Source: Chrysophaeum taylorii
Lineage: Eukaryota > Sar > Pelagophyceae > Pelagomonadales > Pelagomonadaceae
Length of the DNA: 64,000 nucleotides
Direction: 5' to 3'
NCBI GenBank assembly: GCA_029834535.1
Contig: JAQMWT010000310.1
Location: forward strand, 1 to 64,000
The position numbers and the translations under genes were made by a program. A model generated the notes under the pieces. The model was not told where the DNA came from and did no database searches. It was given only the letters and a program-made list of their open reading frames with translations. How positions within the stretch are numbered: position 1 is the first letter of the stretch; every line of letters begins with the position of its first letter. Shown here piece after piece: positions 1 through 49,176 of the stretch.

Positions 1-881
1 TCATCTTTGAGAAGGTGGAACTTCGCGGTTCGACCGCTGTACCCTCTCTGCCCAAATGACACATCACTTCGATCAAAACTTGTAAATGTCGATGAAGATC
101 GTCGGATCCCATCATAATATCGTCAACAAACGCAACCAAGTCTTGATACATCCATTTCGAAAGGTCGCTCGCCATTTGCTTGCAGAAAGAGCTCCGGCCG
201 TCTTCACACCTAGGGTAATCGCAAGAAACTGTGAGCGCCAAGTGGGCTAACCATCGTGACAGCGTCTGCGCTGCCGGATCCAACGAAGGTTGTGGTATCC
301 CCATCTAATATCAATGCATGTCCGCCATCGTCTCATCGCGAGAAAGGCTAAAGCATCATCTTGTCGAATGTTTGGCAACTGTCATTGACCAATTGATCGT
401 TGAGCTGACGTAAGTCAACTGCAGCACGGAACGCGTTTGACGTTCCAATCTCAGCTCCTTTCTTCGGAAGCATCAACACAGGAAAGCCCCAAGGTGAGTT
501 GGCCGGACGAATGACTCCATCCCGGCACCACTCGCTGATCTGCTTGCGGAGACAATCGAGCTTCGCAGGCGTCAATCGGTAGGGCGTCATCTTTATCGGT
601 CGCGGATTCGCGTCTTTGAATCGTAGAGACACAGGAGGCGAGTCCACAGGTCTCATAATCGGGTCGAAAAAGGCCCAAGAATATTGCACACAGTGACGGA
701 GCATCAGTTTCGCCTCGTCATCTAAGTGCGGATTGTCAGGAATTCCCAGCTCCTGCACAACCTTGTCAACTTCTTCCTTCGTAGGAATTTGAACTTTCAT
801 TGCTTCGTTGTCCTTGACATGCTCAGGTCTGCGGCAGTGGTGCACCCTCGGCATCGCGCGGCGCATCTTTCCATGGCACAT
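1..881 (-). pseudogene. Reverse transcriptase domain of the retrotransposon (frameshifted, partial)
   Basis: The first frame (881 to 348) holds the typical LTR-element RT entry: PYRLTPAKLDCLRKQI, then GVIRPANSPWGFPVLMLPKK and the FRAAVDLRQLND segment. A second frame takes over near 380 and gives IRQDDALAFLA and CIDIRWGYHNLR, the first catalytic aspartate region. A third frame open from 304 to the window edge contains LVAFVDDIMMGSDDLHRHL, the catalytic FVDD box (equivalent to YVDD). At least two frameshifts therefore separate the catalytic blocks. The domain should continue into the thumb and RNase H beyond position 1. The catalytic aspartates are present, so the parent element was probably active, but this copy cannot give one RT polypeptide without correction. 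Confidence 0.85.
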
Positions 882-2336
882 CGAACTTTTTCTCGTATTT
901 TAGTTTCACTTCCGGGTGGCTTTTGTTGATCCTCTCGCCTTTGACACGAACACTCGGCTCGCTCTTAATCTTCGGTTCCCGATCTCGCTCAGGATCTGGC
1001 GGAACGTCTAAATTTGGTTGTCGGGGGGGCCCAGCAGAAGAAGCATGAGACGTCCCCGGCTCATCTGTTGCAGGCGGAATCAACGGTACCTCTGGAGGTT
1101 TCCATTTGGTGCGATCTTGAAGATCATCAGTCGACACCCATCTTATGACACGTGTGCGCGTGTTTAACAGCGGAACTTGTGCGTGACGAAGGGTGGTTTC
1201 ATCAATTTGTAAATAATAATCAAACGGTCGGTCTGCAGGACTCAACGCTGACGGCAAAGCTTCGCCGCTCAGGTGAAATTCCTTGGTCACAGAGTTGTGC
1301 AGATCGAGCATTAATAAGGCCATCGTGTCAGGTGGCACGACGGACGCCAAGTGTTTCAACGAGGTCGTCCTGGAGAAGCCGGCCCAATCAAAATCAGGGG
1401 GCATCGTCAGCAACTCCGAAGTCATTTCCAGATTCAGAGATCTGTAATCGGAACGGTGCGGTCCTACGCGAAGCGGGACACGCGTAACAGTATAAGCTGC
1501 GTCTGTCGCGGCTCGTGATGATCCTAAATTGTTCATCTGAAGTAAATGTCGTTCGTCGGCGTAGCCAAGTGCTGCGGCGAACTTTTGCTGCATATTCTTG
1601 CAAGTCTTTGGAACTGCGCGCAAATGGAGCGGATGGCTGGAAACCAACAATCGCACGCGACAGCTCATCAAACTGGGAGTTATGTCGTAAAAATTGACGA
1701 CGTATACGTAAGGTGCAAACGTGCAACGTAAGAAATAATCGAAGCCTCCTGCTCTATCAACCACATGAAGAAACCAGCCATCTTGCATAATTTCATCGTC
1801 CAGTGGGTAGCGGTGACTCCTTTCCCAACATCTCTGGAGGTCAAGTTGCACAGAGCGGAGTGTACGCAGGGTGGCGACGCACACATCGACGACGACCATT
1901 CCGCGTAGGGTAAATAAGATTCGATCAACCGTAAGGTTGTAACATAGCGACCACACAATGTGTGCTGCACCACAGGAATATTCGGAAAGTTCTTGTGGTG
2001 GATCTGGTTGGCGGTGTCCGACGCATCGAGTGCTAGCACGACTCGAAACGACGTCCCACACGTTTCGTTGGCTCGTTGGAGACCTAAAGTACTGCCTCCG
2101 GCTCCACTGAACAGCATCACCACCTTGCGATAAGTGATTGGAAGCCATTGAACCTTTTCATATCGGCGGCGGATCTCCGCTTCGGTGATCTCGCGGCATT
2201 TCTTTTCATCTTCTTCTGACCTTCGAGCGAAATCGTCGCTGCCTTCAGGTCGTTTGAGGGTGGACTTGTCCGTCATAGCGGTCGTAGCGTCCTTCTGCAC
2301 CGTGCTCAGCAGCATCGGCGGGGAGATTCGTCGCAT
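823..2336 (-). pseudogene. Cytosine-C5 DNA methyltransferase domain inside retrotransposon pol (frameshifted)
   Basis: The frame from 2336 to 1680 begins with a charged leader and then shows motif I (LFSGAGGS, nt 2114-2091) and motif IV with the catalytic cysteine (ASPPC, Cys codon at 1868-1866). A WLIEQ stretch may be a weak motif VI (ENV). Near 1750 the signal moves into the overlapping frame 2148-823. That frame supplies a motif VIII-like RVRLLVS (about 1659-1639), a target-recognition-length region, the motif IX-like YRSLNLEMTSELL followed by MPPDFDW, and the motif X-like VVPPDTMALLM (about 1341-1309). Motif order and spacing fit a full catalytic domain of about 340 residues. After motif X the frame continues as a charged linker (to 823) toward RT. 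Family knowledge: enzymes with these motifs methylate cytosine at C5. One frameshift breaks this copy. Confidence 0.8.
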
Positions 2337-2340
2337 CGCG

Positions 2341-3390
2341 TCAAGTGACTAGCGACAGAAACGGTGAAAGAAAGGCTCCCTTGTCGTATCCTTCTTCACA
2401 TTCTTTCGTAAGTTCGTTGATCGTAGAGACGTTCAACTCATCTTCGTACCTAACGATATCACCAATCGCAAGGGCTTCGCCTTGTGTGACGACCGTCGGC
2501 ACTTCTTCCGTGGCAGTAACCGCCACCCGAGCAGCGGACCGGTCGCGCTCTTCGCAAGAAGAACATTCCTTCGACAACTCCCAACTGCTCGTTCTCAGCA
2601 AACGTAGCGACGAAAACCTGTCCTTTTTCCATAGGCTTCGACAAAATAACCGGTAGATTGTACATTCGACCGGGCTCGATTTGAAGCGTGCGCGCGCATA
2701 AGCGATTACTTCTCGCGTCTTCTCCCGGAGCTGGGGAGAATTTGGTCGTAGCATGTCCCCGCGTAGCCAAGGCTACCTTACGTTCCGGCGGCGGGCTTCG
2801 GAGATCTTTAATCGTGCTCAAACGAGCGTAAACTCGAGTCTTGACCAGGTCGAGACTCTGCCGAAAGGCATCGTGTTGATGATTGTAAATCGGTACGGTT
2901 ATCGGATTTCGATCGTAAATAGACCGAAAGGTCACGATTGGTGCATCGACTCGTTCATCCTTAACTTTAATCTTCTTGCGCCCGTAGACGACTTGGGTTC
3001 GACAAAAACAGATCCGATCATGGGAAAATCCACGATGGCTCCTAAAACTCGTATATCGCGCCCTCCCAACAGGAACAGATAATTCGTATCGGCTATAGCG
3101 ACAATGGGGGCAGCGAAGTCGTCGGCGAAAGCGACCCGAAGGCGATCCAACGATGGATCGTCGTCGTATTCAACCCTGATCCGTACAGCTTGCGCTTAAT
3201 CGGAAGTTCGCCTTCATCGAAAATCAACTGATCTTTGGTCAACTTTGACCATTTCTCGGCAAATATAAGAAACATCTGCCATTCCATCGACACCGATGGT
3301 CGTCGAGAATTTCGGTCCGTCACGATTCCTGTAGATGTGACAGGCTATAAACGTTAAAGTACCCGTATCTAAACAACTGAGGGTAATCAA
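2341..3390 (-). pseudogene. Retroelement aspartic protease and connector region (multiple frameshifts)
   Basis: The active-site loop LDTGTLTFIA lies at the end of the Gag frame (Asp codon 3369-3367), where family proteases have D-S/T-G. The rest of the fold continues in other frames: 3323-3093 (DEGELPIKRKLY), then 3150-2932 with ADTNYLFLLGGRDIRVLGAIVD, the C-terminal 'LLG-D...LGA' hairpin expected of retropepsins. From 2935 to 2341, two further frames carry a connector of the kind found between protease and RT (for example PGRMYNLPVILSK and GQVFVATFAENEQLGVVEG, then AVTATEEVPTVVTQGEALAI). At least three frame changes occur in about 1 kb while residue composition stays protein-like, so the decay is mostly small indels. 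No separate start codon is needed, as this would be made as part of a Gag-Pol polyprotein. Confidence 0.65.
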
Positions 3391-6300
3391 ATCATCTTCG
3401 ATCGTCTTGCCATCTCGCGGCGTCAACGAAGTGTGAGCACATCGGGCTCTGAATCGCTCATCTCCGGGGTTGGGCATCGATACCGCGGCTTGAGCTTTCG
3501 TATTATCTGTTGTCGGCGTCCTCGCCATAACGCTCGCGGCAGCCTCTTTATCTGGCGGCTTCCGCTCTTCCTCCAAGACAATCTTCGAGGGAATAAACGC
3601 TGGTAGGGGATCCTGGTCTTCGTAATCCTTGGAAGCAAACAACCCCTCCCATAAATCATTCATTTCGTCGTTCCAGAATGCATCTGTGAATTCATTCGTC
3701 GCCTGCTGATCCTCATCAGCATCGGCGATCGGTTCCGTGTCAGCTGCGGCTTTGAGTCTGCAGCTGCGCGGTTGTTCTGGTGGCTTCTTTAGCAAGAAAT
3801 TCCGAGCTTTCGTCCACCAATCCTGCAGGTTCCACGTCGGCTCGTCTTCGTCACACTTGAGAACGCTGCTAATCTTCTTCATAAATCTATCCTTTTCTTC
3901 CGGCGGCGTATCCGTGTCTCGATCCGTAGTAATCGAAACCGTTTCGGGGGGGTCCGCAGGAAAAGATGGCGTCGTCCCCGACGTCAACTCTGTCGTAAAA
4001 TCGTCGTCTGCAATACTCGCGCTGGTCATCGTCTCATCAGTCGAATGCGCGCACGAGCTATCACTGCAGAAATTCATGTCTGGCTCACAGCCAGTTCGGT
4101 CGCCAGCGGTCGTCTCTGGAGGGTCCAAAGATAAGCCGATGGCATCGAGGGCTTCCTCATCAAAAATAAACGGTGGGTCGTCCATGGACGACTCGTCAAA
4201 TAACGTTAACGCAGACACTGGTTCACAAAGTGTAGCTTCTTCATCTTCCGAATCTGAATCGCATTCCCAGTATCGTGGAGCTTCGAGTTCCTCGCTCGAA
4301 TCTTCGAGCTCATCGCTCGACATCTGCTCATAAATCTGTGCCAAAGACCGACGATTGGTCAGCACGTCGTTGGGTGGCTCGTCCATCGGTGGGCGAGCAA
4401 GATCTTCGAATGCGGCCGCGGCAAGGGCGTCGGCTGCGTCGTCGGTGCGGGTGTCCTTGTTCGGGTACACCGTCACTCCTAATGGTAACTGTTGACCGCA
4501 AGGGGTCGTAAATGCGAACGTTGCAGACGACTGTCCCGAGTCTTCTCGGTAACGACCATCGTCCGAATCTCGATCGCGAGATCTTCGTCGCCGGCGGCGG
4601 CGTGAATGTCTGCTAGAGCTCCTGCTATCTTTCCGTCGGCGCTGGCACGAGCTGCTACGGCTCTTGTCGTGGCGTCGGGGGCTCCGGCTATCTCGACGGC
4701 CTGTTCGTGTCGAAGACGATCGGCCGCGTCCATCTGTTAAGTGCTGCACGGTACTCATAACCGTGGTTAGCTGCGTGCTCATATCATTGAGTCTGCTCTG
4801 AATATCGTGAGCAGCGCTCGAACCGAAGGTGGCATTAGAACTACCGTCGTCACGCGAATGATTATCTTTCCTTTGTCGGCTCTCCCATCGTCCTCGCGAG
4901 ATGGGCTTTCTGCCGTCTTTGATGTATTTGCACATCGCTACATAATAGTCGTCGGGCTCGCGGTTGCAAATGACGCGGTTCCCGTGTTCGTCTTTGTCGT
5001 GGGTCGCTAAGAAAAACCCACAGTCCTGGCACGTCCTCTCGAACCACTTTTTCGGATTCTCTTCGAGGCGTAAGGCTTCATATTTCGTCGTCTTATCTTT
5101 TGTTCCCGAGACGAGAGCTCGTCCTCCGCGTCCAGGCGGCGGCTTCTGCGGCTTCCCGCTCGAGGGGTTCATCGAGTTTCGGCTGTTCTTCTCCGCCATG
5201 GCTGTTGCGAAGTCGTTTTCGAGCCGCGTAATCAGCGACAACGTAGACGTAAACGTCTTATACGTCATCGGTTGTCCGCTGCGCATCGTTCGCACGCGGG
5301 ATTTCAATTCGCTGGACTCCAGTCCACGTATCAAGTAAGAGATGATCTCCACGTCGTTGAGATCGCGGTTGGCCACGGAACAGTATGCCATGGCTTCTTG
5401 CTGAAATTTAATGCAATATGTATGCACGTGACGTTCTCCAGAGCGTTTCGGAACGGTCGTTTGGGTCGTGCATTGTAACTTTCGTAATGATTCCGCTGCC
5501 GTCACCGGCAGCGGACAACTCTCTCGGAAATATGTCAAAATCTTGAGGCAATACTTCTCGTTCAATCGTCGTATCCGTCGTACCACGGAACCGTACTCCT
5601 CATCGTCGATATCCCGACATAAATAGAAAGACGCTGGGTGATCGAGGTCTTTACACAGGTCTTCATATTTCTTTAAGTGTTCTCGAAAAATCGGTGCGAC
5701 CGTGTCGCGCAGGGTCGCGGGAAGCAGATATCGGAATTTCTCCAAGCTGAAATGGTCTTCGGCTAATGTACGCATCACCGCACCCGCATCTAAATCGAAC
5801 TGGTCCTGATCGCGTCCATCGAGAACCAATTTAAAAGTTTCGGTTTTTAATCCAGAGGTTGATCGCCGCTCCTTGTTGCGATCGTGTTTAGCTAACGCGC
5901 TCGCGAGTCGATCCGTAAAACCCATCAAGAACTCCTGGGTGTCGATCTTTCCGGCTCCGCGCGTCTCCTCCTTTTCTTCTTCATCATCGTCTTCATAGCG
6001 CGGCTTTCTAGCTTGCGCGCGTGATCGTGTAGTCGGCGGCTCTTCCTCAGCTCGGGACTCCGGGCTGCTCGCTCGCCTTGATCGACTCGGCGTACGTAAC
6101 TCGTCTCTTTCACGGGTCAACGAGCTTATTTGTTCCTGGAAGGCGTCCGTTCGAGCGTTGGCCCGGCGCAGTTGCTCTTTTAATTCTTCGTTCTCCTTCC
6201 GTTGTAGCCGTTCTTTTCGTTCGTTCTCTTCCCCTATTTGTTTTAAAAGTCGTTCTTGCGCGCGTTCGTTCTCTTCGCGTAATGCCCGCAAGTGAGCCTC

Positions 6301-6552
6301 GTAGAACTCATTCATTTTCGTGGCATCCGGGGGTTCTGCACGCGTTGACGGAGCTGTCGATCGTCCTCCCGCCGGTCTCTCCGTGGGCTTGTCGTAGTTG
6401 TAGTTTAGCTCTTCTTCCTCGCCAACTTCTGTATCGTGCTCTTCTTCATCGTCATCATTATCATCATCATCATTCCGCTCGTTCGTCTCATCCTGACGGC
6501 TTGGCGGTTCTTCATATCGTAGCTGCTCGACGGCAGCATCATCGTCTTCCAT
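3214..6552 (-). CDS. Gag polyprotein of the retrotransposon, reading into the protease
   Basis: This is a single intact frame of 1112 codons. The N-terminus is very acidic, followed by a long charged helix (about residues 75-160). A retrotransposon-gag-like capsid segment spans about 230-450 and includes IISYLIRGLESSELKSRV. A Cys/His cluster near 490-520 (CQDCGF...H...H...C) may be a variant zinc knuckle. After it comes an SR/RR-rich basic stretch (about 600-680), then a long acidic, probably disordered region with no family I recognise, and finally the protease LDTG loop at residue 1062. Gag would form the particle and bind element RNA; the SR-like stretch suggests RNA binding. The Gag region is unusually long. 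Start chosen at the first ATG (6552), but protein-like sequence continues upstream in other frames. Confidence 0.75.
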   Translation of the reverse strand: MEDDDAAVEQLRYEEPPSRQDETNERNDDDDNDDDEEEHDTEVGEEEELNYNYDKPTERPAGGRSTAPSTRAEPPDATKMNEFYEAHLRALREENERAQERLLKQIGEENERKERLQRKENEELKEQLRRANARTDAFQEQISSLTRERDELRTPSRSRRASSPESRAEEEPPTTRSRAQARKPRYEDDDEEEKEETRGAGKIDTQEFLMGFTDRLASALAKHDRNKERRSTSGLKTETFKLVLDGRDQDQFDLDAGAVMRTLAEDHFSLEKFRYLLPATLRDTVAPIFREHLKKYEDLCKDLDHPASFYLCRDIDDEEYGSVVRRIRRLNEKYCLKILTYFRESCPLPVTAAESLRKLQCTTQTTVPKRSGERHVHTYCIKFQQEAMAYCSVANRDLNDVEIISYLIRGLESSELKSRVRTMRSGQPMTYKTFTSTLSLITRLENDFATAMAEKNSRNSMNPSSGKPQKPPPGRGGRALVSGTKDKTTKYEALRLEENPKKWFERTCQDCGFFLATHDKDEHGNRVICNREPDDYYVAMCKYIKDGRKPISRGRWESRQRKDNHSRDDGSSNATFGSSAAHDIQSRLNDMSTQLTTVMSTVQHLTDGRGRSSSTRTGRRDSRSPRRHDKSRSSSCQRRRKDSRSSSRHSRRRRRRRSRDRDSDDGRYREDSGQSSATFAFTTPCGQQLPLGVTVYPNKDTRTDDAADALAAAAFEDLARPPMDEPPNDVLTNRRSLAQIYEQMSSDELEDSSEELEAPRYWECDSDSEDEEATLCEPVSALTLFDESSMDDPPFIFDEEALDAIGLSLDPPETTAGDRTGCEPDMNFCSDSSCAHSTDETMTSASIADDDFTTELTSGTTPSFPADPPETVSITTDRDTDTPPEEKDRFMKKISSVLKCDEDEPTWNLQDWWTKARNFLLKKPPEQPRSCRLKAAADTEPIADADEDQQATNEFTDAFWNDEMNDLWEGLFASKDYEDQDPLPAFIPSKIVLEEERKPPDKEAAASVMARTPTTDNTKAQAAVSMPNPGDERFRARCAHTSLTPRDGKTIEDDLITLSCLDTGTLTFIACHIYRNRDGPKFSTTIGVDGMADVSYICREMVKVDQRSVDFR

Positions 6553-7330
6553 ATCGGCTCTGGCTCGTTCTAGTCGGCCGAGATCAGAGCGGGTCCAAAA
6601 TGGTTGAGTCGTCGTCGTTCTCGTGCTCCTTCGGCTCCGGAACTTCTAATCGTCCACGACACGCGTAATATCGTCGTTGCGTGCGTCTTCCACCGACAAA
6701 TCTATCCGTGCAGTGGGCGGCAGAACTCGTCTCTGCCCGGCAAACAATGCCTTATCCGTGAGTTGCGATCTCACTCCGCTCGCCTGCGGCAGCGGTACCC
6801 GGGTTGCGCGTCGGTTAGAACCAAATCGCGCGTCGTCACTTCCGACGACTAACGTATCCGGCCGGGGAACTTTCCCACGGCAATGGTCCTTCTGGAATTC
6901 CTTGTCGGCGCGCTTGATCAGGGCGCGCACGGCTTGTCCGGACCGTGTAGAGAATGCAAGATGCACTAGTTCGCTGCGACCGATATAGTCGCTCGAATCT
7001 CGTATTCCTCCACCACCTGTGGCGTAAAGAGAATTTTAGGGGCTACCTGGCGTGCCTTCGAATCCTGGCTCGCCGATCGCGTCCGTGCCCTTGGTGGGAT
7101 CACTGGACGAGGATGGCCGTTCTCCCGCCACGCGACCACAAACAACTCCTGCGCCTGGTCCTCTCAACTTGAGGATCGGCTGTTGCTTTATGATCAAGGA
7201 TAATCGAAATCAGAAATCAGGGTGACACATGTCACGGAAAAGGAAGATGATGTCAGAGAAAACTCTGACATCATCGGAACGGAGTAGGGTGCCCCTGATA
7301 AGGGGGGCCCTAGAAGAGGGGTAAGCCTTA
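6553..7330 (-). other. 5' leader and probable LTR region of the retrotransposon
   Basis: On the minus strand, protein-like sequence precedes Gag in broken frames: one from about 7180 to 6975 (with ELFVVAWRENGHPRPV), then 6966-6646 (MHLAFSTRSGQAVRALIK). It may be an N-terminal Gag extension lost to frameshifts. Nearer the outer end the sequence becomes non-coding and holds two perfect hairpins. The 5' LTR should be here, but with only one LTR in view I cannot delimit it. Confidence 0.4.
7222..7274. repeat. Two adjacent perfect hairpins in the putative LTR/leader
   Basis: Arms GTGACA and TGTCAC (7222-7235, 2-nt loop) are followed by a 12-bp perfect inverted repeat, ATGATGTCAGAG at 7247-7258 and its complement at 7263-7274, with an AAAA loop. 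In an LTR, such elements can act in dimerisation, packaging or as paired regulator sites; the role here is unknown. Confidence 0.6.
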
Positions 7331-7344
7331 GGAGGCGGGAGTTG

Positions 7345-7720
7345 CCGCCACAGGGGGCATGAAGGATGTAGGTGGGTTTGTTGGGTAGGAGGGATGTTTG
7401 TCTGTTTGTCTTTAAATGTCGACTGCTAAGAAAAGGGTGTGTGTGGGGAGCATGAAGGATGTCTGTTTGTCTTTAAATGTCGACTGCTAAGAGGGGGGTG
7501 TGTGTGGGGAGCGCGAAGGATGTGGGTGGGTTTGTCTTTAAATGTCGACTGCTAAGGGGGGGGGGGGGGTGTGGGGAGCATGAAGGATGTGGGTGGGTTT
7601 GTGGGGTAGGAGGGATGTGCCTGACGGGCGGAGATAAGTACGCGGGACCTAGTCGGGGTCATCGCCGAGTCGTGGGGCAGGCGAAGAGAGGACGGGCCCC
7701 GCCCGCGGTGGGTTTGTCCC
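7345..7720 (+). repeat. Tandem repeat, unit about 62 bp, with GTCGACTGCTAAG core
   Basis: TTTAAATGTCGACTGCTAAG recurs at about 7411, 7472 and 7537, each time followed by a G-run, GTGTGTGGGGAGC and GAAGGATGT. The same block heads the second Helitron-like copy (about 34720-34800), and the core resembles the inverted ends of the MITE-like element at 60.996-61.188 kb. No coding potential is seen. Confidence 0.75.
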
Positions 7721-8702
7721 CCGATTTAGGGTAAGGATCAGGTAGGCCCGCGAGCCAGACATAGATCCTCCAAGCCGTCTACGGCGACCTCGCAGACTAT
7801 TTCCACGACCCGCGGCGGCTCTTTTAGCCAGCGCGCCATTCTCACGCCCCGTTGAAACGATGTTGTCGATGCTGACAACGCGCGTATGACCGCGGCCTTT
7901 TTTTCCCCGGAGACGAGGCGTCGGAGTTCTTTTCGGCCGACTAGGTTGGGTCGGAAGCCGACGCCTCGCTCTTTGCAGTCGAGTTTTCAACTCCCTGACA
8001 ACCAACGGCATGCTGACTTTGAGCGCGAGCTTAAGGTCTTCGCAACCTTGACCCTTCCCTCGGCCACTGCAACGGTACCAGATACATGCTCGATCGTGTC
8101 GTTGTCACCGAGGCTCCTCCAACCTGTATCCCTTAAGGCCCGCCTACGCCAAACGATCAACAACAAGAGCCAGGGCCAGGCGCCCCGCGAGGTCGGCGTC
8201 CTCTTGCCCAAGCCCGTCTTCTGCCACGTCCAGCTCTACGTGGCTCTCTGTCGATCGGCAACCCCGAGAATACCCTCTTCTGGGTCGACGACTCCACCCT
8301 ACCCCCCACGTGCTGCGCAATACCGATAAGCCCCCTCCCGGCGTCTACACGCGCACCATAGGTGAACTATAACTGGGACCAGGTGAACTTACGGAGGTTG
8401 GAGATTGGGATTAGGTGAACGTAGTGACCAGGTGAGCTTACTGGGACCAGGTGAACTTACTGGGGGTTTTAGAGTAAACTCAAAGCTTAGCGGCGTGTGC
8501 GGATTAAAGCAGCAGCTTAGATTGGCGGGGGTGAGAGCGACGAGTTCAAAGGAGAGTGGGGTGAGTGGATGTGCGAGCTCGAGAGGGTTTACGCCGAATT
8601 TACTGGGGTTAGAGATTGGGACGAGTTGAACTTACTGGGACCAGACCTGAACTTACTAGGGTTAGAGATTGGGAGTAGGTGAACTTACTGGCCTGCACTT
8701 GT
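7720..8702 (+). mobile_element. Helitron 3' fragment: Pif1-like helicase C-terminus plus tail (copy 1, decayed)
   Basis: Read over several frames, the plus strand gives the hallmark C-terminal blocks of Helitron (Rep/helicase) proteins: VVYGDLADYFHDPRRLF-like sequence, ILTPR(N)DVVDADNARM, a V-E-F-x-N-S-L-T-x-N-G-M block, CNGTRYMLDRVVVTEA (about 8069-8115), TINNKSQGQ and PKPVFCHVQLYVALCR (about 8150-8250), and a C-terminal GVYTRTIGEL ending near 8370. Stops and frameshifts break it. A tail of about 330 bp follows, full of 'GGTGAACTTACTGGGACCA' motifs. Copy 2 at 34.85-35.77 kb is near identical, and both end at the same ...GGCCTGCACTTGT point (8702 and 35772), which probably marks the element's 3' end. 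I see no clear CTRR terminus. Confidence 0.8.
8471..8560 (+). repeat. Dispersed 'AGAGTAAACTCAAAG' repeat, copy 1
   Basis: A block of about 90 bp beginning AGAGTAAACTCAAAG and ending in GGCGGGGGTGAGAGCGACGAG...GGAGAG lies inside the Helitron tail. Related copies occur at 26970-27073, 27221-27322 and 35591-35672. The two copies near 27 kb are not next to helicase sequence. Confidence 0.6.
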
Positions 8703-27676: not shown

Positions 27677-30154
27677 CTATGGTGCTCTCGAGTCGTCGTC
27701 GACGGCGTCCTCGACAGTCTCGGCGGCGGCCTCCTGCTCGACCATTTCGACGTTAGACTGGTGCTTGGCCTTATCGTCGTCGTCGCCGCCGCCGGTGCCC
27801 GCGTCGGGCCGCTTGTCGGCGACGAGGAACTTGTCGTCGGTGGGCGGGGGCGCGTAGGTGTTGGTAAAGGAACGGCGACGACGCGAGACGAAAAAGTGAA
27901 GAAAGATACAGGCAGTCGCGAGGGCAAGGAAGACGACGGCGACGACGATGATGATGAGAACAGACGAGTCCTCATCGTCGGAGTTCTTCTTCTTGTTCTT
28001 CTTCCCGCCGTCCGACGACGGCGGGCTTTGCGTCGGCGGCTCGCTGGTCGGACCCGCGACGGGCCGCGCGAGACGAGTCGGCCGCGGCGCTGGCAACGAC
28101 GTCGTCGTCGGCAACGGCGTCGTCGTTATCGCCGCAGCGGTGATGACGTCGAGGACGTCGGTCGCGTTGAGGATGGTCGCGGCGCTCAGAACAGCGTTGA
28201 CCGAGGCGTCGTCGAAGACGATCGTCTTTCCCGCCGCTCGGGCGGTCAGGGTATCGAAGTAGGCGTCGGTCTCGACGACAGCCTCGTAGAGCGTATCGAC
28301 GACGATTTGACGCAACGCGGCCGCGGCGTCGTCGGCCGTCTCGGCGCGCACGAGCCCTTGGCTCGAAACGAGCGCCACGTAAGCGACCTCGGTAGTCGCG
28401 TTCTCGTCGAGCAGCGAGCGCCGACGTCTTGATGTTGTTTTCGACTCAGCACGAACGTCGGTCACCGTCGCGCCATCCAAGTTACCAGTGCCAAGCGTCG
28501 CCGCGACCGACCGGGCAAAAACCTCTATGGTGATGTCGTCCGACGCGATGTCGACGGCCTCGACGTCGTCGAAGACGATGGCGGACTCGATCGAGGCCGT
28601 CACGTTGAAGAGCGGCATCGTGGGCATGGGGATGGGGGCGCTCGAGGTGGGCTCGAGGGTCGTCGGACGCGAAGACGTCGGGGGGAGCGAGGTCGGTCGC
28701 GAGGTCGTAGGCTCGCTCGAGGTAGGCATCGTCGTCGTCGGCGACAGCGTGGTCGGGCTCGGCGTTGGCCGCGCGGTCGGGCTCGGCGAGGGTCGCGCAG
28801 TGGTCGGGCTCGGCGAGGGCTGCGCGGAGGTTGGGCTCAGCGAGGGCCTTTCGGTGGTCGGGCTCAAAGAGGGCCGCGCGGTGGTCGGGCTCAGCGAGGG
28901 CAGCTCGGTCGTCGGGCCCGGCGTGCGCGTGGTCGGCGCCTGGCTCGAGGTCGGAAACGCCGTGGTCGGCGCGGGCGTTGGAATAAGCGTCGGGTGCGTG
29001 GTCGGGGTGGAAGTCGGACGTCTCGACGGCGCCCCCGTGCTCGGGATCGACGTGGGGCATCGAGACGGCGCGTACGTCGGCGTTCGCGACGGCGCGGGCG
29101 TCGGACGTAGCGAAACGGTCGGCTCGTAGGACGGGGCGTAGAGGGTCGTAGGCACCCTCGAGGGCGCTGGGCGCGGCACCGAGGAAGGTCGAGGGGTCAC
29201 AGTTGGCGCAGCCGACGGAGTAGCGGTCGTCGGTGCGGGACTGACCGTCGGTTGCCGCGTCGGCTCGCTCGTCGTCGGAGCGTAGGTCGGTCCCGAGGTC
29301 GGCGTCGACGTCGGCCGAGGCGTCGTTGGCGCGTACGAAGGCGCCGCCGTCGTCGGTAGAGGAGTCGTCGGTGCGCGCGTTGGGTACACCGTGGTGGGCC
29401 CGTAACTCGGCGAGACCGTGGGGGCGTACGTCGGCGAGAAAAACACCGGAACCCCGAGGTACGATGCCAACGTCGTCCCGATCGTCTCGGCCATCAACTT
29501 CAACCCGTCGTCGTTTGGGTGAATGTTGTCCGCATAAAGCTCCTCGATCACCTCGCCCTCATCCAACAACGGCGGCCGCAAGTCGATGCTCAAGTCGAGC
29601 CCGTTGGCTGCCACGACCTCGTCGACGAGCGGCGGGAGCTCGTCGTTTATGATGCTCGCGTCGGGCCACTGCCCGCCGCCTCGCACCTGCGGCACCGGGA
29701 CCAGCGGTACGACCAACACATCGGAACCCAACGCTTCGCGCAAGGCGCTGATCATCGCAGCGTAGGCCTCGAGATACGCCGCAGCCGGATCTTCGAGCGC
29801 GTCCGTCCAGTAGATTTCCTTGGCGTCGTTCGTGCCGAGGCCGATCAGCACGATCTCCGCGCCGCTCTCGAGGCCGATCTGCCACTCGTCGGTGTCCTGG
29901 TACCATTCGGGAAGCTCGATCATTGTTCGCCCGCTCCGACCGAGGTTCAACACCTCGAACTCGTCGCCCAGCAACTCCTGGAGAACCGACGGCCACCGTT
30001 TTTCGTCGCTCGACGCGCGCGATCCGTACGTGTTGCTGTCGCCGAGGCATGCGACGACTCTCTGCGCCTCGCCGCCCCGCATCATCATCATCATCATCAT
30101 CGTCATGAGGAACAACCGCCAAAACGACGCCGCCGCCGCCGCCGCCGCCGCCAT
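27677..30154 (-). CDS. Cell-surface SGNH/GDSL hydrolase on a Pro/Thr-rich stalk with membrane anchor
   Basis: The product has 825 residues. An Ala-run and Met-run N-terminus with a hydrophobic core acts as a probable signal peptide, ending near GGEAQ. The SGNH domain (about 33-235) shows block I GDSN (Ser40), block II Gly, block III GTND (Asn109) and block V DNIHPN (Asp209, His212), so the catalytic triad and oxyanion residues are present. It should be an esterase or acetylesterase, substrate unknown. About 290 residues of PT(x)nPT repeats follow, a likely O-glycosylated stalk. Next is a globular segment (about 530-690) with TASIESAIVF and VARS-type pieces. Then a basic/acidic patch, one membrane helix (SSVLIIIVVAVVFLALATACIF) and a short cytoplasmic tail. 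The Pro/Thr stalk style is common in diatom and other stramenopile surface proteins. Confidence 0.88.
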   Translation of the reverse strand: MAAAAAAAASFWRLFLMTMMMMMMMRGGEAQRVVACLGDSNTYGSRASSDEKRWPSVLQELLGDEFEVLNLGRSGRTMIELPEWYQDTDEWQIGLESGAEIVLIGLGTNDAKEIYWTDALEDPAAAYLEAYAAMISALREALGSDVLVVPLVPVPQVRGGGQWPDASIINDELPPLVDEVVAANGLDLSIDLRPPLLDEGEVIEELYADNIHPNDDGLKLMAETIGTTLASYLGVPVFFSPTYAPTVSPSYGPTTVYPTRAPTTPLPTTAAPSYAPTTPRPTSTPTSGPTYAPTTSEPTRQPTVSPAPTTATPSAAPTVTPRPSSVPRPAPSRVPTTLYAPSYEPTVSLRPTPAPSRTPTYAPSRCPTSIPSTGAPSRRPTSTPTTHPTLIPTPAPTTAFPTSSQAPTTRTPGPTTELPSLSPTTARPSLSPTTERPSLSPTSAQPSPSPTTARPSPSPTARPTPSPTTLSPTTTMPTSSEPTTSRPTSLPPTSSRPTTLEPTSSAPIPMPTMPLFNVTASIESAIVFDDVEAVDIASDDITIEVFARSVAATLGTGNLDGATVTDVRAESKTTSRRRRSLLDENATTEVAYVALVSSQGLVRAETADDAAAALRQIVVDTLYEAVVETDAYFDTLTARAAGKTIVFDDASVNAVLSAATILNATDVLDVITAAAITTTPLPTTTSLPAPRPTRLARPVAGPTSEPPTQSPPSSDGGKKNKKKNSDDEDSSVLIIIVVAVVFLALATACIFLHFFVSRRRRSFTNTYAPPPTDDKFLVADKRPDAGTGGGDDDDKAKHQSNVEMVEQEAAAETVEDAVDDDSRAP

Positions 30155-30301
30155 TGTGATTGATTGATTGCTATTGCTTGCGGCAATAGCGCATTGCGAA
30201 AAATTTTCCGGCAGAACGAACTCCTTTGAAAATAAGGGTAAGCGTTAAATGTTTGGTGCATCAACAACGGTTTCCTAAGTTCCGAGAGTCGAAAGGGGAA
30301 A

Positions 30302-44191: not shown

Positions 44192-47100
44192 TTAGTGGAG
44201 ACTGCGGAGCTGGCGTTCGAAGACGGCGTTTGCGCGGCGATGTCGCGCGAGGGCCTCGAGGAGCTCGTGCTTGCGAGGGTGATCTCGAGGAGGGGGGGGG
44301 GGTGGTTGGATCTGATCGAATCGCGGTTGTTGTGGTCCTCGCTTCGTCGGCGGTGGTGAAAAAGTCCTCCAAGTCGGGAGGGATGGTTGGTGTCGTGGTT
44401 TTCCAAGGTCATAACGGTCGTCGATGCGCTGGTAGGCGAGTTCGGGGCAGGGGGCGAGGCGGGCGGCGACGAGGGCGGCGAAAACGGTTTGGTAGTCGCG
44501 AGGTTGTTCGAGAGCCGTTCTGAGGGCTGCTCCGAGCGCGTTGGGAGGCGACGGGTCGAGGGCCGCGACGTAGTCGTCGGTCGCAGAGGGTCGCCAGGGC
44601 GGGACCTGCGCGGAGAGGAGAGCGGCCGCGCAGCGGTCTGTTCGGTCGCGCCAGTCGGCGGGCAGCGGGGCTCCCGGGACGAGGCGGGGGCCGACGGGGA
44701 CGAGGGCCGCGCGCGGGCCCGTCGGCACCTCGTCGGCGTCTATCGGCGAGTCGCGGAGCGAGGAAGCCGCGGCGGAAACGGCGTCGTTGAAGTCCCGGAT
44801 CGCGCGGTCGCGGACGTCGGTAGCACTTTTTTCGGTCGTCGTAGCCCTTTCGGCCGCTTTCGTCAAGACGAGGTCGGAAGGCGCGTCGGCTCGAACGAAC
44901 GCGGGCAGGCGCGCCGTGCGTAGGGCGAGCCAGCGGAGGGCCTGGTCGACGCGCGCCGGCGGGACGACGACGACGGCGGGAGCCGCGGTAGCCAGAGGCG
45001 CGGCGTCGGCGGCGTCGAAGCAGCAGACGACGGCGAGGGCCTCGAGGGTCGTCGTTAGTTTCGCGGCGGCCTTGGCGACGATGTCGACGTCGTCGGCAAT
45101 TACGGCGACGGCGGCGTTCGCGGGGGGTCCGAGGAGAACGCGGACGCCCGGGGCGTCGCCCGGGTCGAAGAGGACGGCGTCCCCCCCGAGGACCGCGAGG
45201 CGCCAGACAACGTCGGGCGGCGCGACGCCGGGGATATCGGGAAGCATCCCGAGGAGCGTTTGGGCGACGGCGCGGCTCACGTCGACGCGGAGGCGGCGCG
45301 GTTCCCGGCCCGGCAGCTCGCGGGGGCGCTTCCTTCTGTTCGGAAAAACGTCGTCGTCGTCGTCGTTCAAGGTTCGCGTTTCCCAGGCGAGACCGTGGGA
45401 AAAGGAGGCGACGACCTCGTCGAAGGCGCCGCGCTTGGCGACGCGCGCCATCGCGCGGTGATGCCAGAGCCGGAGCCAGAGGGCGGCCGAGCGCGCGGCG
45501 TCGAGGCGGCGCAGGTTTCGGCGGTCGCGCGCGCGGCGTTCGAGCTTGCGGAGCGTGGTCCTCTTCAAGTGCGCGGTCGCGCGGCGCTCGTTCAGCGCGT
45601 CGACGCGCCGCCGCTCCGCGTCTTCGAGGGCCCGGCGCTCGCGCTCCAAGGCCTCGGCCTCGAGCCGCCGGGCCTCGGCCTCGCGGATTCGCCGAGCCTC
45701 CGCGGCTCGCCGCTCGGCCTCGATCCGCCGCCTCCGGTCCTCGGCCTCGCGGAGCCTCCGGTCCTCGGCCTCGCGGCGCCTCCGGTCCTCCAAAGCGCGC
45801 CGCGCGCGCTCGGCGGCTCGCGCCTCGAGTCGCCGCCGCTCGCGGTCGAGCTCCGCCGCGCGTCGCTTTTCCGCCTCGGCCTCGAGGCGCCGTTTTTCCA
45901 GAGCCGCCTTGGCCTCGAGGTCGCGCTTGGCGCGATCCGCCGCCGCCGCCGCCTCGCGCGCCTCGCGCTCGGCCTTTTCCGCCGCGCGTCGTCGCGCGGC
46001 CCGCGCCCGGAGCTCCTCGGCCGACGGCGACACGATCTCGCGCAAGGGCGCGTCGTCGTCGCCGTCGTCAAAGATGCCCGACCGGCGGAGCGACGCGGGC
46101 GTAGGTTCGGGCGGCGGCTCGTCGGCGGCGAGGTCCTCGTCGGCCGTCTCGGCGTTGAGGTAAACAACAGAATTGGTGCGCGCGACGCGAAGGCCGGCGT
46201 CGCGCGCCGCGTCGGCCGCGTCGGCGACCGTCTCCGAGCCGAGGACGCGCGCGAGGCGCGAGAGCGGGTACGGCTCGCCCTTGGCGTAGGCGCGGCCCAT
46301 GACGCTCAGGGCGGCGGCGCGGACGCCGCGCGCCATGAGAGCGACCAAGAGACACTTGACCAGGTAGGGCGAGGCGCGCGCGATCGAGAAAAATCGGAAG
46401 TAGTCGAGGCGCGCGCGGCACGACCTCGCTGCCGCCGCCGTCGCGACCTCGGGCGCCGAGTAGAGCGAGGGCCGCGTGGCCGCGAGCCGCGACAGCAGCT
46501 GGCCCGCGTCGTGATCGTTGTCGCCGAAAAACAGAATCCAGTACGCCGTTACCTCGGCCTCGTGCTCGCTGACGACGACGCCGCGCGCGTGCGCCATGTC
46601 GTAGAACGCGAGCAGCGCCGTCAGGATTTCCGAGAGGGATTCGGCGTTGTGCTTGCCGTGCGCGGGCCCCGCGCGCCACTCGGGATGCGCCGCCATGCGC
46701 CTCTCCATCGCGATAAAGTACCGCGCCATGCGCTCGAACACGTCCACGACCGTCTCGTCCACCAGCCCGCCCTTGGTGTAGTTCTGCAGAATAAAATCCT
46801 TGCGGATCGCGCGGAACCGGTCCCACAGAAACAGGTACGTCGAGAGCCCCTCGTCGCCGCTTCCTTCTGACGACGACGACGACGTCGTCGTCGTCGTCGT
46901 CGCCTTGCTCACGACGTGCGTCTCGAGGTGGTCCAAAGTCGCGAGCAAAACCCGCGGCGGACGCACGAGCTCGGGCACGTTCTGGATGCTTCCCGCGTCC
47001 GACCGCTTGTACCGCTTGACCGCGAACTCGCGCGCGGCGACCTCCAAGTTATTGGAACTTTTTAGAAAAGCCGCGGGCGGCGGCTTCTCCCACGCGTCCA

Positions 47101-49123
47101 GCTCGTTGTGCCGCGCGCGCTCCTCGATCTCGCTCTGCGGGCACATTTGCTCGCACGTCCCCACAATCGCTGCGGCCGGCGGCTCGTCCCCGTTCGGACG
47201 AGCCGGTGCGGGCCCGCGCCTCCGAGCCGGCCGTCTTTGCGGCGGCGACGTCGACCGCGCGGCCGCCGCGGCCGTCGCCGCCGTCGTCGTCGTCGTCGTC
47301 GAAGAACACACCCGCACGTCCAGCGGCCCCGACGAGAACGCGTCGATACCGTGGAGCTGCTCGACCGCGAGCTCGGCGTGCGACGCCTCGTTGAACATGA
47401 CGAGCCCGTACCCCTCCTTTTGAATCGCCACCAGCGACACCTCACCGAAAGTGTCGAAGATCGACTTGAGCCGAGCCTCGGTCGCGTCTCGGGGCAGCCC
47501 GTCCACGCGCACCGTCCGGGACATGCTGCTCCCCTTGGCCTTGGGGGGAAGAACACCACCACCACCGCCGCCGCGCGTTTTTGACTCCCCCGAAGTGTTG
47601 AAGATGGCCGTCTTGTGCTGCTTGGCGTTGATGTCCTCGCCGTAATAATAGTCCTCGTCCTCCTCGACGCCTAACTCCTCGTCCTCCTCGTCGCTCGCGT
47701 CCGGGGGACCCCCCTCGTTCGTCAGCAGCTGCGGCGGCTGCTGCTGCTGCTGCAGTCCCGGGGTCGATCCTTGCGCGCGACGCACCGTCGCGTGGATCGG
47801 CGCCGAGAACCCGGGGAAGAGGTCGGTCGAGCTTTTTACGACGCCCGCGGCCGCCGCCGCGTCGCGCTTCGTCGCGTAATTCGCCCACCCGTAGGCCCGC
47901 CCGTCGCGGTGGATCGTCTTGACGCTCTGCAGACCGCTGCTCGCCTTGCGCTGCTCGAGCACGCGCCTCAGCTGCTCGTCGCTGCAGCTCGGCGGGAGCG
48001 GCTGGAGCTTGAGGCAGTACGACGCCGCCGCCGCCGCCTCGGCCTGCGGCGGAGAGTGCGAGCCCGCCTGCGGATGGGCTTGCGCTTGAGCGCGCGCCTG
48101 TTGGACGGCGACCTGCACGGTCTTGCCCGTCTGGAAGAGGTCCGTCCCGCTCGTCTCGCGCGCCGCGCGCTCCGCTCCTCGAGCGTCCTCGAAGTTCACG
48201 TACGCGATCGGGTGCCGGCCCTGTTGCCGCGCGACCTTGACCGACCGAATCCCCCCAAACCCCTCGAAGGCCGCCCGCAGCGTGGCCTCGTCCAGCGTCG
48301 CCGGCACCCGCGACACTACCACCGCCTTGGCCGGGTCCTTTTGCGCCGCCGCCGGCCACGACTGCTCGCCCGGTTGTTGTCGCCGCTGCTGCGCCGCCGC
48401 GCGCGCGCCCGTCTTGGCGCTTTGGAACGGTCCCTCTTTCGTCGCCCCGAATACGCTGCTGCTGCTGCTGCTGCTGCCCTTCGCCGCACCGAACGCGCCA
48501 AAGCCCTCGCCGAACGACGCCTTGCTCGCCTCGCCGCCGAACGGCGCCTCCACCGCCCGTTGCCCAAACGCGCTTCCGCCGAAAACGTTGCTCTCCTCGG
48601 GCACCAGCATCCCGCCCAACCCTTCTTGCTGAGGTCGCTGCCCGAAGAACCCGCCGCCGCCGCCGCCGAACGGCTGCATGTTGCTGTTCTCCGGCTGCTG
48701 CTGGAAGCCGCCTCCACCAAAGGGCTTCTTGTTGTAGTTCTCCGGCGACGGGTCTCGTCCGCCGCCGCCGCCGCCGCCAAATGGTGAGCTCTCGTTCAAG
48801 GCGTTGCCAAAGGCGGCCGGCTGGCCCAAGCCGACCCCCCCCCCAAACGTCGTCGTCGTCGTCGTCGTGTCCTGGCTCTGCTGGCCGAAGGTCGCCCCGC
48901 CCCCGAAGATGCTGCGGCCACCGGTACCGGAAGGAAGAAGAGATGCACCGCCGCCGCCGCCGAAAGAGCCACCTCCCCCGAGGGTGGAGCCCAAGCCAAA
49001 GCCGCCACCCCCGAACGGCGACTGCTGGCCGCCGCCGCCGCCGAAGGACGCGCCGCCCCCGAAGGACGGCTGCTGGGCCCCGCTGGCTCCGAACATGGTT
49101 GTTGGTGTCCTCCTCGAGTCCAC
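44192..49123 (-). CDS. SAC3: SAC3/GANP-type mRNA export scaffold with FG repeats and three RRMs
   Basis: One intronless frame of 1643 residues. Residues 1-250 are Gly-rich with many FG/FGGG motifs, as in nucleoporins. Three RRM-like domains follow: about 267-345 (VVVSRVPATLDEATLRAAF), 368-452 (CLKLQPLPPSCSDEQLRRVL) and 533-610 (TVRVDGLPRDATEARLKSIF). The SAC3/GANP/THP3 helical domain runs from about 652 (GTCEQMCPQSEIEER, with KRYKRSDAG) to 1000 (KGEPYPLSRLARVL). A long Arg/Glu/Ala coiled coil (1020-1270) leads to a C-terminal globular part. In yeast and animals Sac3/GANP is the scaffold of TREX-2, which couples transcription to mRNA export at nuclear pores. FG plus RRM plus SAC3 matches animal GANP; three RRMs is unusual. 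It diverges from the EEP gene over only 53 bp. Confidence 0.9.
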   Translation of the reverse strand: MDSRRTPTTMFGASGAQQPSFGGGASFGGGGGQQSPFGGGGFGLGSTLGGGGSFGGGGGASLLPSGTGGRSIFGGGATFGQQSQDTTTTTTTFGGGVGLGQPAAFGNALNESSPFGGGGGGGRDPSPENYNKKPFGGGGFQQQPENSNMQPFGGGGGGFFGQRPQQEGLGGMLVPEESNVFGGSAFGQRAVEAPFGGEASKASFGEGFGAFGAAKGSSSSSSSVFGATKEGPFQSAKTGARAAAQQRRQQPGEQSWPAAAQKDPAKAVVVSRVPATLDEATLRAAFEGFGGIRSVKVARQQGRHPIAYVNFEDARGAERAARETSGTDLFQTGKTVQVAVQQARAQAQAHPQAGSHSPPQAEAAAAASYCLKLQPLPPSCSDEQLRRVLEQRKASSGLQSVKTIHRDGRAYGWANYATKRDAAAAAGVVKSSTDLFPGFSAPIHATVRRAQGSTPGLQQQQQPPQLLTNEGGPPDASDEEDEELGVEEDEDYYYGEDINAKQHKTAIFNTSGESKTRGGGGGGVLPPKAKGSSMSRTVRVDGLPRDATEARLKSIFDTFGEVSLVAIQKEGYGLVMFNEASHAELAVEQLHGIDAFSSGPLDVRVCSSTTTTTTAATAAAAARSTSPPQRRPARRRGPAPARPNGDEPPAAAIVGTCEQMCPQSEIEERARHNELDAWEKPPPAAFLKSSNNLEVAAREFAVKRYKRSDAGSIQNVPELVRPPRVLLATLDHLETHVVSKATTTTTTSSSSSEGSGDEGLSTYLFLWDRFRAIRKDFILQNYTKGGLVDETVVDVFERMARYFIAMERRMAAHPEWRAGPAHGKHNAESLSEILTALLAFYDMAHARGVVVSEHEAEVTAYWILFFGDNDHDAGQLLSRLAATRPSLYSAPEVATAAAARSCRARLDYFRFFSIARASPYLVKCLLVALMARGVRAAALSVMGRAYAKGEPYPLSRLARVLGSETVADAADAARDAGLRVARTNSVVYLNAETADEDLAADEPPPEPTPASLRRSGIFDDGDDDAPLREIVSPSAEELRARAARRRAAEKAEREAREAAAAADRAKRDLEAKAALEKRRLEAEAEKRRAAELDRERRRLEARAAERARRALEDRRRREAEDRRLREAEDRRRRIEAERRAAEARRIREAEARRLEAEALERERRALEDAERRRVDALNERRATAHLKRTTLRKLERRARDRRNLRRLDAARSAALWLRLWHHRAMARVAKRGAFDEVVASFSHGLAWETRTLNDDDDDVFPNRRKRPRELPGREPRRLRVDVSRAVAQTLLGMLPDIPGVAPPDVVWRLAVLGGDAVLFDPGDAPGVRVLLGPPANAAVAVIADDVDIVAKAAAKLTTTLEALAVVCCFDAADAAPLATAAPAVVVVPPARVDQALRWLALRTARLPAFVRADAPSDLVLTKAAERATTTEKSATDVRDRAIRDFNDAVSAAASSLRDSPIDADEVPTGPRAALVPVGPRLVPGAPLPADWRDRTDRCAAALLSAQVPPWRPSATDDYVAALDPSPPNALGAALRTALEQPRDYQTVFAALVAARLAPCPELAYQRIDDRYDLGKPRHQPSLPTWRTFSPPPTKRGPQQPRFDQIQPPPPPPRDHPRKHELLEALARHRRANAVFERQLRSLH

Positions 49124-49176
49124 GCTCTCCTTACCCTACTTTAATAATAAATAAAACCCTCGAATCATGACATGAC
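49124..49176. promoter_or_regulatory. 53-bp divergent promoter interval between SAC3 and EEP genes
   Basis: TACTTTAATAATAAATAAAA is the only AT-rich block. Both genes must use this interval or start inside each other. Confidence 0.5.

Follow-up and report, generated by a model that had tools for sequence, protein, structure and literature searches.

What is a cytosine-C5 methyltransferase (MTase) doing inside an LTR retrotransposon, and does it belong to the element or to one damaged copy of it? The question is raised by the left end of the window, by which we mean the whole stretch of 64,000 nucleotides that was analysed. The preliminary description had read this region as an LTR retrotransposon with a built-in C5-MTase, in an alga other than those for which such elements had been reported. 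The host is indeed another alga, the pelagophyte Chrysophaeum taylorii, which is a stramenopile. Its genome has been published as 71 Mbp in 702 contigs, and the main text of that paper contains no words starting with 'repeat' or 'transpos' (PMC10366177). The assembly analysed here comprises 70.8 Mb in 697 contigs.

Positions 1-7352, on the minus strand, are a broken Ty3/Gypsy LTR element with a pol-encoded C5-MTase. The order of its parts is 5' LTR, gag-like ORF, LDTG protease, connector, C5-MTase domain and reverse transcriptase (RT). Contig C310 starts at window base 1, so that the window holds the 5' part only and the RT is truncated there. The 5' LTR (7018..7352, minus strand, TGTGGCG...CGCCACA) is 335 bp long and matches those at the 3' ends of two copies on contig C5 with 98.8% identity. 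Adjoining it is a primer-binding-site-like stretch (6993..7017, minus strand), placed identically after the 5' LTR in both of these copies; an exact 20-mer from it occurs at 95 sites in the genome. The gag-like ORF (3214..6645, minus strand, 1143 aa) continues into the protease, and its section 5050-5940 has 134 genome matches at 55-100% identity. Because a Pfam gag match is absent, the label gag-like was assigned by position and conservation among copies. The protease was identified by its LDTG active site motif (3361..3372, minus strand), which has no Pfam retropepsin match. The pattern T-[LV]-S-C-[LV]-x-x-G was found in 28/32 loci (L031-L062), as LDTG in 27 and as LNTG in one (L038). A connector from protease to MTase (2341..3200, minus strand) is in pieces in the window copy.

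The MTase domain occupies 1259..2207 on the minus strand, with ends derived from motif positions; its core in open copies is 316 aa. Motif I (LFSGAGGS) lies at 2114-2091, the catalytic Cys at about 1868-1866 within an ASPPC that begins at 1880, the motif VI Glu, by motif placement, at about 1754-1752, motif VIII (RVRLL) within 1662-1645 and motif X (VVPPD) at 1341-1327. The frame is broken between motifs VI and VIII, leaving motifs I, IV and VI in ORF 2348-1680 and motifs VIII-X in a different frame, ORF 2157-823. The start of a Ty3-type RT (348..899, minus strand) was recognized by likeness to copy L061, the piece alone having no Pfam match. The rest of the RT, with FVDD at 130-119, is cut by the contig end (2..304, minus strand) and matches RVT_1 below the cut-off (E 0.0076). 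Window positions 1-4632 are 97.6% identical to L061 at the nucleotide level. All motifs named in the preliminary description (LDTG, LFSGAGGS, SPPC, RVRLL, VVPPD and FVDD) were thus located on the minus strand. The span that it gave, 823..3390, takes in the MTase and protease motifs, but the gag-like region, at about 3.4-6.6 kb, lies outside it, as does the RT (899-348 and 304-2).

The genome was then searched with the MTase piece of the window, and the best 150 of 846 candidates were scored (75-100% identity). 132/150 scored matches are free of stop codons across the matched stretch. The two copies on contig C5 are each open in one long frame, of 3,063 and 3,067 codons, and frame lengths that are equal in the MTase and gag searches imply that gag and MTase share a frame in other copies, for example on C477, C22 and C56. 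Family members with open frames, of the kind that the preliminary description had advised retrieving, are L061 and L062. Both carry the MTase within one pol frame, together with the LDTG motif, connector, RT, RNaseH, integrase zinc finger and integrase core. The L061 RT matches RVT_1 at E 7.6e-12, and in the PDB its RT-RNaseH comes closest to Ty3 (E 2.9e-68). In a search with the RT, 95 of 1,326 candidates were scored, and at least 50 of the 95 copies have an MTase match upstream on the same strand. MTase and RT are 1093-1118 bp apart in 49/50 and 763 bp apart in one. The other 45 have no upstream MTase among the matches listed; three of these were read, and all three carry a cut or degraded MTase. 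The MTase core is constant at 315-316 residues in 26 distinct open cores, with the exception of L045, whose alignment extends to 327 columns. The C5-MTase is therefore a repeated pol module of a Ty3/Gypsy family.

LTR pairs of 335-336 bp with TG...CA ends were found in two copies, the C5 elements of 10,275 and 10,288 bp, and the window holds a 5' LTR alone. Over 336 columns the LTRs of one C5 copy have no mismatches and those of the other have four, which implies recent insertion. A target-site duplication is absent from these two copies, the flanks differing in both, which could be explained by recombination. Assignment to Ty3/Gypsy follows from the PR-RT-RNaseH-IN order and the Ty3-type RT, with PR recognized by the LDTG motif alone. 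The Ty3-like RT, the LTR pairs and the recurrence of the MTase bear out the reading of an LTR retrotransposon with a built-in C5-MTase.

Both C5 copies lack a match to window positions 5984-4632, the middle of the gag-like ORF. Derivatives were surveyed in 28 of 150 linker matches, mainly those that start late. A gag match was found upstream of the linker in 15/28, at a distance of 3398-3579 bp in nine, 1051-1099 bp in four (C189, C237, C525 and C322), 2707 bp in one and 4591 bp in one. The one short-gap copy that was read (L099, on C322) has an open frame with neither protease motif nor MTase. We infer that the short-gap copies are deletion derivatives that need the help of other copies, not autonomous relatives without an MTase. 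Since derivatives without PR and MTase exist in several copies, the MTase module is dispensable in cis. The preliminary description would have taken intact members without the domain as a sign of chance insertion. On this point the three copies read among the 45 have a cut or degraded MTase, and L099 is without both the MTase and the protease motif.

How good is the evidence that the domain is a C5-MTase? On the window piece PF00145 scores 21.2 bits (E 2e-4), just below its cut-off of 22, and within whole frames of 3005 and 3026 aa it scores 18.4 and 18.9 bits, also below. On the isolated 316-aa core of L061 it scores 25.7 bits, above the cut-off, and it matches 14/15 scanned family members at E up to 0.1. 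PF00145, whose failure to match would have refuted the preliminary description, thus does match; the gag and retropepsin profiles gave no match. The SGAGG of motif I, C115, E153, R185 and R187 are invariant in 19/19 aligned open cores. These were drawn from the 26 distinct cores; of the seven omitted, six are >96% identical to L061, and L045 differs over a stretch that includes motif VIII. An element profile of 15 sequences was compared with a profile of 42 Dnmt2 proteins using hhalign, which gave a score of 83.8 (E 6.6e-11) and paired SPPC with SPPC, LIEQ with LENV and RVRL with RPRY. The maximum for 28 column-shuffled decoys was 22.8, so the homology is more than chance. Against 11 prokaryotic C5-MTases, one of them a 216-aa piece, the score was 77.3 (E 3.9e-10) over 249 columns from motif I to X. 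Two cores also have matches among the DNA methyltransferase families of PHROGs, at 1e-7 to 1e-6. With the curated dcm model of NCBI the score was 18.5 bits, far below the model's cut-off of 100.65. The motifs deviate in having V instead of Q after the catalytic Cys and EQ, not ENV, in motif VI. Loss of the motif VI Glu was considered and rejected; hhalign and the alignment with P0124, a related transcript described below, place WLIEQ at motif VI, and the Glu is therefore kept. FxGxG, PC, the motif VI Glu and RxR are thus all present, at positions given by profile alignment.

The class of the enzyme was approached in several ways. In the PDB the sole C5-MTases at E <1 are three Dnmt2 proteins (0.02-0.04, best E 0.022, to the motif I-III block); the five GGA1 rows beside them are noise. 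With the limit relaxed to E 10, 4/5 C5-MTases reached are Dnmt2, and no Dnmt3 chain was reached. Scored singly against the element profile, 42 Dnmt2 proteins gave 16.2-66.7 (median 43.7) and 11 prokaryotic C5-MTases gave 11.6-41.0 (median 25.7). With profiles matched in size at 11 sequences, eight Dnmt2 subsets scored 73.3-89.9 and 6/8 exceeded the prokaryotic 77.3; the subsets straddle that value, so that the profiles favour no DNMT class clearly. In a 29-row tree, unrooted and with long branches that drew a warning from the tool, P0124 groups with the element MTases in one clade (100/99), and 14 Dnmt2 rows make up another (99/100). The Dnmt2 branch of this tree contains no element MTases, and a place sister to Dnmt2 is compatible with it. 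A Dnmt2 origin, suggested by the PDB ranking and the single-sequence scores, was accordingly held unproven after the size-matched profiles and the tree. The host has a Dnmt2 of its own (P0003, CTAYLR_008533).

A profile search of a 5.8-billion protein set, in which 6,104 candidates were scored, returned one match, P0124. It is a marine eukaryote transcriptome entry with 29% identity (E 1e-24), colinear with the polyprotein across the end of the connector and the MTase, and it stops before any RT. P0124 keeps the catalytic Cys, the Glu and both Arg and has lost the PP preceding the Cys. It could represent a retroelement or else a relative of cellular origin. Since a sequence from another marine eukaryote shares connector and MTase, the unit is not private to the C. 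taylorii genome. The pol region as a protein query gave no matches, for which the length limits of the search are perhaps responsible.

Selection on the MTase was estimated from open cores, a choice that favours low ratios; 17 were loaded and 13 compared. Between subfamilies A (seven cores) and B (four cores), 28 pairs gave dN 0.115 and a saturated dS of 2.27, two of the four windows yielding no finite estimate; the ratio is about 0.05. Within subfamilies dN/dS is about 0.2. These values indicate that the MTase is under purifying selection, and point to its presence before the A/B split and its retention since. CpG depletion was not found, the observed/expected ratio being 1.31-1.38 in the element and 1.34 in window positions 9001-64000. 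Between-copy transitions, taken unpolarised from 30 loci each compared with one copy, were most frequent at CpT (0.0169), followed by CpG (0.0114), CpC (0.0097) and CpA (0.0075). The absent CpG footprint would be compatible with methylation in other contexts, RNA targets or repair.

What might the MTase do for the element? We judge the chances about even that the Gypsy enzyme, encoded in gag-pol between protease/connector and RT, methylates the element's own nucleic acid within the particle. The reading builds on the position of the domain, the open frames, the invariant catalytic residues, purifying selection and recent insertion. The element protease would free the MTase, or the MTase would stay fused to RT, inside the virus-like particle. 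There it would methylate cytosines of element nucleic acid, most likely new cDNA and possibly RNA or primer tRNA, and the methylated copy might then pass as host-like or be protected before integration. A location in pol would put the MTase in the particle with RT, which makes cDNA the first choice and RNA the second. The invariant catalytic residues and the selection on them argue for an enzyme that is probably active. Undepleted CpG, the motif deviations, the low dcm score and the derivatives without PR and MTase were counted against methylation of the element's own nucleic acid.

Two other readings are appreciably less probable, and we rate them alike. The target of the enzyme could be RNA instead of DNA, as it is for Dnmt2: either the RNA of the element or its primer tRNA. 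The packaged genome of such an element is RNA, no CpG footprint was found, and Dnmt2 proteins score higher singly and are the sole C5-MTases below E 1 in the PDB; yet size-matched profiles have no clear Dnmt2 preference, and the tree separates the element MTases from the Dnmt2 clade. The domain could also be a weak or dead fold, kept for binding SAM or nucleic acid or as a polyprotein spacer. Its motifs are divergent, P0124 has no PP before the Cys, and only about 75 residues separate motif VIII from motif IX, where target recognition in known C5-MTases sits. A spacer, however, would not keep the Cys, the Glu and both Arg, which are invariant even in P0124, or show such strong selection. It is improbable, to a greater degree, that the MTase acts on the host, altering chromatin where the element has inserted or farther away, or bringing the host some benefit, although many copies could raise host methylation, as is proposed for Symbiodinium in the available text of PMC5890265. 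That chance insertion or an assembly artefact placed an MTase fragment in one broken element, as the broken frame and marginal PF00145 score of the window copy alone might suggest, is refuted to near certainty by the same module in the same place, with a core of constant length, in dozens of copies on different contigs.

A search of the C. taylorii genome with PF00145 gave 57 matches, of which 30 were fetched. Two look like host genes (L001, a Dnmt2, and L002), and 28/30 (L003-L030) are a repeat distinct from the Gypsy family. L063, the only copy that was read, is of the Copia type (RVT_2 E 1.6e-38). In it a C5-MTase-like domain (32.1 bits) is flanked on one side by a protease-like motif and on the other by an integrase whose rve match, at 17.2 bits, is below the cut-off. 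TLPCQ and VENV are present in this domain, and motif I is weak. This second MTase was absent from the preliminary description. With the Copia MTase as query, 150 of 403 candidates were scored in a search that gave 151 matches, and 66 pairs from 12 open copies have a median dN/dS of about 0.15. Its best PDB matches are prokaryotic C5-MTases (E 0.007), and its profile has a weak link with that of Dnmt2 (probability 23%). Comparison of the Copia and Gypsy MTase profiles gave no link (probability 0.4%); the two were therefore acquired in separate events or are now too diverged for a relationship to be seen. No relative of either MTase was found in viral contigs.

The precedents cited in the preliminary description, Symbiodinium and Klebsormidium, are correct. 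De Mendoza et al. 2018 reported SymbioLINE-Dnmt, SymbioDIRS-Dnmt3 and KnitGypsy-Dnmt3 (PMC5890265, available text, to which the following comparisons by description are limited). Like the C. taylorii element, KnitGypsy-Dnmt3 of Klebsormidium nitens is an LTR-bearing Gypsy element, free of introns, whose Pol ORF includes a cytosine MTase, and it is under purifying selection (Ka/Ks < 0.2 in KnitGypsy). Its MTase, however, clusters with Dnmt3 and its repeats are DIRS-like, whereas the C. taylorii element has ordinary LTRs, a divergent MTase assigned to no class and a stramenopile host. The KnitGypsy enzyme produced no methylation in yeast, which was counted against methylation by the C. taylorii element, although its authors call the result inconclusive (PMC5890265). 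SymbioDIRS-Dnmt3 and SymbioLINE-Dnmt also have an MTase in retrotransposon coding regions and many copies, and the SymbioLINE MTase is an orphan as well, but these are DIRS and LINE elements, not Ty3, in a dinoflagellate host (PMC5890265). SymbioDIRS enzymes, which are of another DNMT class, methylate CG in yeast (PMC5890265), a precedent that speaks for methylation by the C. taylorii element.

Among enzymes with structures, Dnmt2/TRDMT1 provides the best C5-MTase match, at E 0.02, but in the tree the element MTase falls outside its clade. The C. taylorii element resembles yeast Ty3 in its RT-RNaseH and PR-RT-RNaseH-IN order; Ty3 itself has no MTase. Sarre et al. 2025 (PMC12344493) name Copia and DIRS elements as carriers of DNMT3 and refer to de Mendoza et al. 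2018 for this. The available portions of PMC9998398, PMC12477816 and PMC3145265 report no MTase-bearing retrotransposon in pelagophytes; the Ectocarpus paper among them reports a Sola DNA transposon that has an MTase of the N4/N6 type. Our literature search, in which subscription journals were thinly covered, found no such report for pelagophytes either. Elements of this kind are known; what looks new, as far as the searched literature goes, is the lineage, the orphan MTase and the finding of two captures in a single genome.

Cytosine methylation usually silences transposons, and elements that carry the enzyme reverse that logic. In the literature searched, earlier reports were confined to dinoflagellates and one charophyte. 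With its two MTase-LTR families, apparently unrelated, its MTase-less derivatives and its recent insertions, this stramenopile genome of 71 Mb would make the benefit of the enzyme to the element testable. Tentatively, and with rather less confidence than we give to methylation within the particle, we suggest that an orphan C5-MTase lineage in retroelement polyproteins may have spread among lineages of marine protists, with connector and MTase travelling as one unit. Taken with the Copia capture, this would imply that pelagophyte LTR elements are under recurrent selection for methylation of their own nucleic acid, which might be RNA and not DNA. As far as the sequences indicate, an element of this kind may put chemical marks on its own DNA or RNA while copying itself.

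A C5-cytosine methyltransferase (MTase)-like domain was also found in a Copia family of the C. taylorii genome, both in the element read (L063, G000:C96:61000-70999) and in 28 PF00145-matching loci of the same repeat (L003-L030). The genome search produced at least 151 matches to this family. The domain is placed between a protease-like motif and the integrase, with a long stretch separating it from the integrase downstream. A profile comparison of the Copia domain with the Gypsy MTase revealed no link between them.

Among Gypsy copies L031-L060, the commonest transition context (unpolarised) was CpT, not CpG. The middle of the window copy's gag-like ORF is absent from the two longest open copies, L061 and L062, which carry ∼1.15 kb of other sequence in its place. 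Tandem repeats of ∼61 bp adjoining the 5' LTR and dispersed repeats of 19–43 bp occupy window positions 7404-7602 and 8385-8691, and repeats resembling these also lie just beyond the 3' LTR in L061, one of the copies on contig C5. A host gene in the window encodes a protein with SAC3/GANP and RRM domains (44195-49135, minus strand); a GDSL lipase (27680-30244, minus strand) and an endonuclease/exonuclease-family protein (49171-50547, plus strand) are also encoded there.

In L082 and L083, cut and partly inverted internal sequence abuts the LTR directly, an arrangement that might be left over from self-integration.

Gypsy derivatives of the L099 type (G000:C322:72290-73840) lack both the protease motif and the MTase. 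Their frame remains open between gag and the RT linker. These derivatives are a possible natural control for the role of the MTase.
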